From a virus: a stretch of DNA of 35,790 bases. The notes under the pieces are model-generated. The model made no database searches. It was given only the letters and a program-made list of their open reading frames with translations, and had not been told where the DNA came from. The position numbers and the translations under genes were made by a program. Location of the stretch: positions 1 to 35,790 of the IMG/VR virus record IMGVR_UViG_3300020411_000074; one strand, given 5' to 3'. Each line of letters opens with the position of its first letter. The first letter of the stretch is position 1. Shown piece by piece: positions 26,151 through 34,048 of the stretch.

Positions 26151-26410
26151 ATGTGCTGATCAACACATCGGGAGTGACTGAATAAACTTACTGGCATATA
26201 GCTAGTTAAGGTGATGAGACACAGGTGGTGCTGCTCCGAAAGGAGAATCGACTTACCAGTCGGGTCTTAGGCAGAGATGTTTTTCTAAACTGTAGAAATG
26301 CCCATCTCTTGTTGGTATACAGGATTCCAACCTCCCCCTTTACCCAACAACATTACAAAAAGCGTAGGGTTAATTCCCTAATTGGAGGGTTCGCATCCTC
26401 TTTTTATTTT
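26151..26410 (+). ncRNA. Structured non-coding RNA of unknown class
   Basis: No credible gene fits here, but the stretch folds densely. Stems are ATGTG/CACAT (26151-26168); CTTACTGGC with GCTAGTTAAG; and an enclosing TGAGAC/GTCTTA (26215-26220 with 26264-26269). The last closes a junction with CTCC-GAAA-GGAG (26234-26245) and CGACT-TACC-AGTCG (26249-26262). Further on come AGAGATG/CATCTCT with an inner TTTCT/AGAAA (26273-26309), two competing GTTGG pairings (26309-26350) and TAGGG/CCCTA (26365-26380). GGAGG/CCTCT followed by TTTTATTTT (26384-26410) looks like a terminator. It starts right at the 26118 promoter. The manA and wcaG RNA motifs are reported from cyanophages; I could not confirm either. 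Confidence 0.7.
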
Positions 26411-27835: not shown

Positions 27836-28000
27836 ATGCAAAAGAAAAATCTTAAAGTCTTAATAGACGACATCGAAAGAGCACTAGCAGAGTTAAAGTC
27901 TGAAGTCTATTCCGATACTAGTGCGTATCGTATAAGTAGTGATACTGATAGACACACTACTTACCTTGACATCAACGACGAAGACGGAATCTGCGACTGA
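27836..28000 (+). CDS. Small acidic protein
   Basis: 54 residues from the ATG at 27836. The first half is a helix (LKVLIDDIERALAELKSEV); the second is Ser/Asp-rich with a strand (HTTYLDIND) and an acidic end (EDGICD). The 3' end overlaps the start region of the GIY-YIG-like gene. Not CP12: the paired Cys of that protein are absent. Function unknown. Confidence 0.6.
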   Translation: MQKKNLKVLIDDIERALAELKSEVYSDTSAYRISSDTDRHTTYLDINDEDGICD

Positions 28001-28427
28001 TTATGAAAACCCCTGGTTATATCAAGGTGCAACTTTCTCTACTGACGATATTGGTGATTTCGTCGGTTTCGTCTACCGCATTACAAATCTACAAAATGGG
28101 AAGGTCTACATCGGAAGAAAGTATTTCTACCAGAAACGAAAACCTAAAGGAGGCAAGCGACGTGTTACGTCAGAGTCTGACTGGAAGCGGTATTACGGAA
28201 GCTCTGCAGAACTTAAACAAGACATTAAAGAATTTGGAAAACAAATATTCAGAAGAGAAATTATAAGCCTACATAAAACACAGGGACGAGTTAACTATGA
28301 GGAGACTCGTCAACTCTTTCTTAACAATGTACTTACGGAGGCAGACACCGATGGCACACCTAAATTCTACAACAGCAACATACTTGGTAGGTACATGCGT
28401 AAAGACTATTTTAATGGTTGCGACTAA
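27939..28427 (+). CDS. GIY-YIG-like nuclease family protein
   Basis: Up to 162 residues. DFVGFVYRITNLQNGKVYIGRKYF (about 40-63) carries the GIY...YIG-type strand pair (GFVY and VYIGRK), followed by SDWKRYYGSS, LKQDIKEFGKQIFRREII and a conserved YEETRQLFLNNVL helix holding the candidate catalytic Glu. Small GIY-YIG proteins in phages are often free-standing homing endonucleases. The start is uncertain: the ATG at 27939 overlaps the previous gene by 62 bases, a TTG lies at 27966, and the conserved region begins near TDYENPW. Confidence 0.75.
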   Translation: MILIDTLLTLTSTTKTESATDYENPWLYQGATFSTDDIGDFVGFVYRITNLQNGKVYIGRKYFYQKRKPKGGKRRVTSESDWKRYYGSSAELKQDIKEFGKQIFRREIISLHKTQGRVNYEETRQLFLNNVLTEADTDGTPKFYNSNILGRYMRKDYFNGCD

Positions 28428-28448
28428 CTAATCTTTATAGTATAATAA

Positions 28449-28603
28449 CGGTTAGCAATAGGTATCCTCCATGAAAGACGAGTTTTATATTGATCTTTGT
28501 AACGAATGGATGACAGAGGAGTACATTGATTTAGTTATAGATCAGTTACATCACTTTGCTGAAATAGGCATGGAGGATGAGGGTTCGACTCCTTCCTAAC
28601 CGA
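28449..28603 (+). ncRNA. tRNA/tmRNA-like RNA element wrapped around a small ORF
   Basis: A 7-bp acceptor-like stem CGGTTAG/CTAACCG (28449-28455 with 28596-28602) is followed by a discriminator A (28603). A canonical T-arm GAGGG-TTCGACT-CCTTC (28579-28595) stacks directly on it. A perfect 10-bp stem ATCCTCCATG/CATGGAGGAT (28464-28473 with 28569-28578) adjoins the T-arm. An 8-base linker CAATAGGT replaces the D-arm, and no anticodon arm of normal size exists. Missing D-stem and a long helix next to the T-arm are the layout of the tmRNA tRNA-like domain. CCA is not encoded, and the third pair is G-C, not the G-U needed for alanine. TATAAT (28441-28446) lies just upstream. Confidence 0.6.
28471..28599 (+). 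CDS. Small acidic protein encoded inside the tRNA-like element
   Basis: 42 residues: MKDEFYIDLCNEWMTEEYI then DLVIDQLHHFAEIG and a short EDEGSTPS tail. The amphipathic, acidic helices look like real protein rather than chance. The ATG lies in the 5' strand of the 10-bp stem and the TAA in the 3' acceptor strand, so translation and the RNA fold exclude each other. No ribosome site is visible (CCTCC precedes the ATG). Alternatively the coding look is accidental and the loop is a tmRNA-like insert. Confidence 0.5.
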   Translation: MKDEFYIDLCNEWMTEEYIDLVIDQLHHFAEIGMEDEGSTPS

Positions 28604-28604
28604 T

Positions 28605-28616
28605 TCCCTTCGGGGA
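28605..28616 (+). promoter_or_regulatory. UUCG hairpin after the tRNA-like element
   Basis: TCCC-TTCG-GGGA, followed by CAACGG, which could extend the stem with CCG of the acceptor strand. It shares CTTCGGGGACA with the hsp20 leader hairpin (4126-4148). No T-run; processing or stability element more likely than terminator. Confidence 0.4.
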
Positions 28617-28641
28617 CAACGGTTCATTAAGGTAAACTCTT

Positions 28642-28833
28642 ATGGAAAGATTCTCACCAAGCATCCAAATTCTAAGGGATGCAGTCGATAGAAAGATTAT
28701 TCTCGACATCGAATATCCAGTAATCTATAACAAGATTATGAGATTCTTAGAGACAAAAGGTGTTCAATTCTACGGTGATGTAGATGAGAACTACGACATT
28801 TTTTTAAACCAACTAGAAAAGGTACTACTATGA
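28642..28833 (+). CDS. Small hypothetical protein
   Basis: 63 residues, helical and fairly hydrophobic (QILRDAVDRKIILDIEYPVIYNKIMRFLETKGVQFYGD), ending DIFLNQLEKVLL. Overlaps the next start by 4 bases (ATGA). No recognisable family. Probably co-transcribed with its neighbour. Confidence 0.6.
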   Translation: MERFSPSIQILRDAVDRKIILDIEYPVIYNKIMRFLETKGVQFYGDVDENYDIFLNQLEKVLL

Positions 28834-33904: not shown

Positions 33905-34048
33905 CGGTGAGGATTCCCTCACCATAATGCTCCCGCTAACCAAGACCTATGGGAGGATAAATTACGTCTTTCATATCCAGTAGCGAGGGGTTACTGGAAA
34001 TAAGTTTCGCATCTACCCTAGGTGCCCTACTTAAAAATCGTCTTACTA
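33905..34048 (+). promoter_or_regulatory. Structured psbA leader (possible PhotoRC-type element)
   Basis: GGTGAGG-ATTC-CCTCACC (33906-33923) stands at the predicted 5' end; CTCCC/GGGAG (33930-33934 with 33951-33955) and CCAGTA/TACTGG (33977-33982 with 33992-33997) follow. Conserved RNA motifs PhotoRC-I and PhotoRC-II are known upstream of psbA in marine cyanobacteria and phages. Position fits, but I cannot align the consensus. No clear ribosome site precedes the ATG. Confidence 0.5.

Follow-up and report, generated by a model that had tools for sequence, protein, structure and literature searches.

This locus raises the question of why a small phage open reading frame (ORF) should be wrapped in a fold resembling the tRNA-like domain of tmRNA, and of where such a fold comes from. 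The window, namely the whole stretch of DNA analysed (35,790 nt), is part of a T4-like cyanophage genome (Kyanoviridae), with P-SSM4/P-RSM3 and P-SSM3 as the nearest isolates. The element lies on the + strand between two genes of the same orientation that serve as syntenic anchors: a gene of the SegE-type GIY-YIG endonuclease family upstream (T4-GC_213, 27939–28427; PF19835, E = 1.8e-54) and the T4-GC_249/PHROG 552 gene downstream (28642–28833). It should be noted that the upstream gene is called ‘NAD synthetase’ in GenBank cyanophage records and in PHROG 447 and a SegE-type GIY-YIG endonuclease in Pfam (PF19835); the ‘NAD synthetase’ label looks like a wrong annotation.

The whole element covers 155 nt (28449–28603), as defined by its fold, by the match to our model R1 (152.3 bits, the window sequence being among those used to build R1) and by a descriptor and its null, given below. 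The sequence-only reading had described a 7-bp acceptor, a T-arm, a perfect 10-bp helix and a short GG-containing linker in place of the D-arm, arranged around a 42-codon ORF, and all of these are present. The acceptor 5′ strand (CGGTTAG, 28449–28455) pairs with the 3′ strand (CTAACCG, 28596–28602) in the fold, and this pairing recurs in the other members. The 8-nt linker (CAATAGGT, 28456–28463), with its D-loop-like GG, reads TAATATGGA/T in the other members according to alignment A2, where the GG is invariant; in the lineage of the window the T of an upstream ATG has been lost and the GG kept. The 10-bp helix, which resembles the P2 helix of tmRNA, is refined by the minimum free energy (MFE) fold to 28464–28473 (ATCCTCCATG) and 28569–28578 (CATGGAGGAT), a position that places the whole AUG of the ORF inside the helix. 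It is followed in the fold by the T-arm (GAGGG-TTCGACT-CCTTC, 28579–28595), which contains one G·U pair. The ORF (28471–28599) thus starts in P2, takes up the loop and the larger part of the helices and stops within the acceptor 3′ strand (TAA, 28597–28599). The discriminator position (28603) is an A in the window and a G in two members. Neither a D-arm nor an anticodon arm is found in the fold and, as had been remarked, a G3–U70 pair and an encoded CCA are both absent. A UUCG hairpin (TCCC TTCG GGGA, 28605–28616) occupies the trailer, and a similar hairpin is found at the equivalent place in the tRNA-bearing relatives described below.

The tRNA-like structure at 28449–28603 is not a chance fold. 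Its MFE is −47.5 kcal/mol (z = −4.07), and none of 200 shuffles is equally stable. A descriptor combining a 7-bp acceptor, a linker of 6–10 nt, a 9-bp P2, a T-stem of at least four pairs and a TTCRANN loop matches the window once on the + strand and not at all on the − strand, and none of 150 dinucleotide-shuffled versions of the window contains a match; this descriptor was written after the element had been seen, so that it provides a consistency check, the independent test being conservation. When 60 nt of upstream and 70 nt of downstream flank are included, the energy model favours other pairings in most members, and the tRNA-like fold lies 0–7.5 kcal/mol above the MFE. Two of the searches proposed by the sequence-only reading give neither a tRNA nor a tmRNA: ARAGORN reports none at the element or elsewhere in the window, and cmscan, an Infernal-type search, finds no tRNA or tmRNA family (RF00005 included), with cut-offs of E ≤ 10 for the window stretch and E ≤ 5 for five members. 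A match to PhotoRC-I (RF01716) covering the T-arm and the UUCG hairpin (28566–28617) was discarded, with 17.4 bits compared with a gathering cut-off of 45, and RF01716 has no match in 13 isolate phage genomes. PhotoRC-I itself might hold a tRNA 3′ end plus a hairpin.

Six further distinct element sequences were found at the same locus on marine viral contigs, namely L011, L051 (identical in L053, L139 and L167), L073 (L108), L353 (L128), L351 (L145) and L356 (L375), and the element of L009 and L010 is identical to that of the window. All seven distinct sequences sit between the SegE-like gene and T4-GC_249, on separate viral contigs, and de novo folding of the six other members gives the same closed acceptor and P2. 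The acceptor is paired at 7/7 positions in every member and exists in four forms (CGGTTAG/CTAACCG, GGATCAG/CTGATTC, GGGTTAG/CTAACCC and GGGTCAG/CTGACCC), with two-sided changes at three of its seven pairs (1, 3 and 5). Pair 3 is G–C in the window, L011, L351 and L356 and A–U in L051, L073 and L353, and the covariation of pair 5 doubles as a swap between UAA and UGA stop codons. The single two-sided change in P2 is at pair 2 (U–A to G–C), and in L351 the helix is longer by 3 bp through matched insertions in its two strands (ATCCTCTGACAT/ATGTTAGAGGAT). For the covariation set of seven sequences, all metagenomic and with some changes common by descent, the score in alignment A2 (94.8% of cells paired) is 0.264, compared with 0.160 ± 0.020 after shuffling (0/500) and 0.014–0.126 for slid controls; the insertion of L351 is not structure-aligned in A2, and the A2 counts are therefore conservative. 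Covariation is confined to the acceptor and P2. The T-stem has no two-sided change and its pair 3 is U·U in three members, L356 has one mismatch in P2, and the T-loop TTC(R)A is invariant among members. Covarying stems in relatives had been set beforehand as a test, their absence, combined with purifying selection at the protein level only and the lack of a discrete RNA of this size, being named as grounds for giving the structure up; since they are found in the acceptor and P2, these grounds do not apply. With its T-arm and acceptor joined by a stemless D region, its T-loop consensus and its covariation, the element has the structural features of a tRNA-like structure in the broad sense.

None of the cultured phages among the isolates checked carries the element, and one pattern scan across the GTDB genomes added no other member. 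On the tree built for the SegE-like gene, the element appears in three separated places, one of them beside phages with a tRNA at the locus. This scattered placement is consistent with either an element of old date followed by losses or exchange through recombination, which the neighbouring SegE-type endonuclease could promote.

The ORF belongs to the T4-GC_663/PHROG 1329 family (E = 1.6e-6 for PHROG 1329). It is in frame in all members, with its AUG inside P2 in every one of them, and its product ends in GS(T/I)PS. Outside the helices, the pN/pS ratio between the window and L011 is 0.15 (5.5 synonymous and 4.5 nonsynonymous differences). With both the fold and the ORF conserved, selection appears to act on the RNA as well as on the peptide. 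The T-loop of L011 reads TTCAATT in place of TTCGACT, a change that stays within the tRNA T-loop consensus and yet turns a Thr into an Ile in the peptide; this change, a single data point, points to an RNA-level constraint at the T-loop.

The origin of the element is best approached from related phages. In about 20 of them, referred to here as tRNA-type relatives, a real tRNA-Arg(UCU) overlaps the same small ORF at the syntenic position. The order at these loci, that of ordinary cyanomyoviruses, is a consensus sigma-70 promoter (17-nt spacer), a leader, in most cases with a Shine–Dalgarno sequence, T4-GC_663, tRNA-Arg(UCU), a small hairpin and T4-GC_249. The tRNA-Arg is present in the isolates S-IOM18, S-CAM8, ACG-2014g, S-RIM2, S-B64, P-RSM1 and metaG-MbCM1, and neither the tRNA nor the element is found at the locus in P-SSM4, P-SSM3, P-SSM7 and contig L012. 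In L001, L002 and L006, T4-GC_663 stops at a TAA in the anticodon loop of tRNA-Arg, and this overlap of protein and tRNA genes is seen in several cyanophage genera. Model matches of 19–47 bits in tRNA-type phages were left out of the members, as mainly the ORF is aligned and P2 pairing is poor; in some of them, the T-arm and 3′ acceptor strand of the complete tRNA are aligned as well. In the element members, the ORF is flanked on both sides: the 5′ acceptor strand with the linker TAATATGG comes before it, and the T-arm and 3′ acceptor strand come after its tail. This 5′ piece is similar both to the beginning of the tRNA (CTGGGTCAGTAG) and to the former leader (GGGTAGTC), so that either may have been its source.

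Given that its syntenic counterpart is a tRNA-Arg(UCU) overlapping the same ORF, the element is most likely a remodelled tRNA-Arg, and its tRNA-like part most likely descends from this tRNA rather than from tmRNA. The two kinds of locus share their position, promoter and small ORF, homology in the T-arm and acceptor, and a similar trailer hairpin. They differ in that the tRNA is complete and placed after the ORF, whose stop, at the loci read, falls within the anticodon loop, whereas the element has lost the D- and anticodon arms and has its 5′ acceptor strand in front of the ORF. CCA does not follow the tRNA-Arg either in those relatives that were read. A permuted tRNA was also considered and set aside, as the strand order does not fit. 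Finally, contig L357 (1471–1577) has the small ORF and the promoter region without a tRNA or a tRNA-like element and may represent a more advanced stage of loss.

A candidate sigma-70-type promoter (TTGCGA-17-TATAAT, 28418–28446, + strand), predicted by consensus scan only, lies directly upstream of the element, and the 17-nt spacing and near-consensus hexamers are kept in all members and tRNA-type relatives. The −10 box ends 1–2 nt 5′ of the first acceptor nucleotide; in most tRNA-type phages it ends 4 nt before the leader GGGTAG, and the Shine–Dalgarno AAGGGAG of their leaders is absent from the element members. With a predicted start about 7 nt past the −10 box, i.e. inside the acceptor, the greater part of the acceptor 5′ strand would be missing from the RNA, which could not close the acceptor, and the complete fold therefore needs read-through RNA from upstream; read-through is an assumption of what follows. 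The promoter spacer (28418–28455 region of the window) also contains a stretch that partly repeats the acceptor 3′ strand, with CTGACCC matched at 7/7 positions in L356, 6/7 in L351 and L051 and 5/7 in the window, and that might form a competing hairpin. Energy minimisation suggests a four-strand attenuator, in which the promoter-spacer copy and a trailer copy compete for the acceptor strands. When the competing strands, upstream and downstream, were compared for complementarity with their own and with swapped acceptors, the result was not clearly above background.

To our knowledge, tmRNA is the only widely known RNA in which a reading frame is enclosed within a tRNA upper half, and its own descent from tRNA has been deduced rather than seen. 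The element resembles tmRNA in its 7-bp acceptor, its T-arm, its stemless GG-containing D region, the P2 helix replacing the anticodon arm and the ORF in the loop. It differs in that its ORF has its own AUG in P2 and stops in the acceptor, the total being 155 nt, in the absence of G3–U70 and of an Ala-type or hydrophobic degradation tag, in having no Rfam or ARAGORN match and in its genomic origin. Measured against the definition of a tmRNA, it has the tRNA-like domain and lacks G3–U70, a start-less tag ORF and a model match; measured against that of a tRNA, it lacks the anticodon arm, the D-arm and a match to RF00005. The earlier description of a tmRNA-like fold around an ORF that is nevertheless not an ordinary tmRNA therefore holds. 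Acceptor pairs 1–3 and the discriminator differ among members (C–G/G–C, G–C/G–U, G–C/A–U and A/G, respectively), which makes conserved aminoacylation by one synthetase unlikely. Small phage RNAs with a tRNA-like domain cut by host RNase P exist in the phi80-induced M3 and the P1/P7 C4 RNAs, for which we know of no wrapped conserved ORF and no recent tRNA-Arg ancestor. In plant RNA viruses, the 3′ tRNA-like structures of the TYMV/TMV type lie in the 3′ untranslated region and several are aminoacylated (PMC4810235). They share with the element the viral mimicry of tRNA and an acceptor/T-arm-like domain joined to a message, but they enclose no ORF, whereas the element has its ORF inside and variable identity elements. 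No description of such an element was found in the literature, within open-licence papers. We would class it as a tRNA-like RNA of tmRNA-like topology and probably independent origin, and claim no role in ribosome rescue for it.

From the anatomy of the element, its conservation and covariation, the tRNA-Arg synteny and the conserved ORF, all of which are read from sequence, we infer a mechanism to which we give a probability of about 0.4: a tRNA-derived, tmRNA-shaped domain would let host tRNA-end enzymes define and protect a small mRNA, with P2 hiding its AUG. The ancestral cyanophage locus would have consisted of a promoter, the small ORF and an overlapping tRNA-Arg. A rearrangement would have placed the 5′ acceptor strand and a U8–A9-like linker before the ORF and left the T-arm and 3′ acceptor strand after it, the D- and anticodon arms being lost and a P2-like helix joining the two tRNA halves. 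In the read-through RNA, the acceptor/T-arm minihelix and the GG/T-loop elbow might be read as a tRNA end, the candidate readers being host RNase P, RNase Z and the CCA-adding enzyme. Processing would then define and protect the ends of an mRNA of ∼155 nt and part it from the downstream gene. As the fold would bury the AUG in P2, and ribosomes would have to melt P2, the T-arm and the acceptor to reach the stop, folding or processing and translation would be mutually exclusive. In a broader formulation, suggested by the sequence-only reading, the element may act through mimicry or recruitment, with EF-Tu, RNase P or the CCA-adding enzyme as partner, or it may be a translational switch. A bolder one, namely an independent tmRNA-like invention in which a phage tRNA-Arg became a tRNA–mRNA chimera matured by tRNA enzymes and carrying its own initiated ORF, seems to us doubtful.

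Other explanations share part of this evidence. The fold might act as a cis-regulatory switch only, setting the translation of the small ORF and/or of the downstream gene in competition with flanking hairpins, with no tRNA enzyme involved. The AUG always within P2, the leader Shine–Dalgarno missing in members and the alternative pairings with the flanks, equally stable or more so, in the read-through RNA would all suit such a switch, but a canonical T-loop, a 5-bp T-stem, an acceptor of exactly 7 bp and a GG linker are left unexplained by it, and the competing strands fit their own acceptors not clearly better than swapped ones; we regard it as rather unlikely. That the tRNA-like upper half is kept and the decoding half discarded would instead recall a tRNA mimic acting in trans, a discrete RNA serving as a decoy or effector that binds EF-Tu, a synthetase, the CCA enzyme or a host defence directed at tRNAs, with the peptide incidental. 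The variable acceptor pairs and discriminator, which would bear its identity, speak against this, and an ORF kept in frame under purifying selection argues that the peptide is not incidental, so that we judge such a mimic improbable.

A further possibility is that the element is a remnant, a tRNA-Arg minus its 5′ two thirds, its upstream pairing being an unselected by-product of leader likeness (GGGTAG versus GGGTCAG). Leaders of the tRNA type do start with GGGTAGTC past the −10 box, one base off GGGTCAG, and the whole module has been lost in some related lineages (P-SSM4 and L012). However, the two-sided changes in the acceptor and P2, the matched 3-bp insertion in P2 and the persistence of the element in three clades that stand apart in the tree of the neighbouring gene are not what a remnant would lead one to expect; this reading is disfavoured by the covariation and we hold it to be very unlikely. 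A decayed tmRNA, which the sequence-only reading had put forward, or an unrecognised standard one would have the same topology (tRNA upper half, stemless D region, P2 and internal ORF), but G3–U70, a hydrophobic degradation tag and any tmRNA model match are wanting, the ORF has its own start codon and the syntenic ancestor, present in the ∼20 relatives, is a tRNA-Arg. A decayed tmRNA was rejected on the synteny and the lack of model matches, and we give this whole explanation hardly any credence.

The locus has several implications. Related phages carry, at the same syntenic position, either the presumed ancestral state (the small ORF with an intact tRNA-Arg overlapping it) or the remodelled one, which opens the transition from one to the other to direct study. 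If tRNA enzymes do process the element, then these phages would cut and protect an mRNA by tRNA maturation, and translation and processing would compete within one fold. If the chimera were real, it would form a bifunctional RNA class of its own, new to biology, and would serve as a model from nature for the way in which tmRNA could arise from a tRNA. Standard tRNA and tmRNA annotation misses the element. Elsewhere in the window, two other structured RNAs were observed: the manA motif at 26152–26341 (RF01745, 180 bits), which belongs to the cis-regulatory RNAs, and a PhotoRC-II RNA (RF01717) at 33919–34011, directly 5′ of a psbA-like gene.
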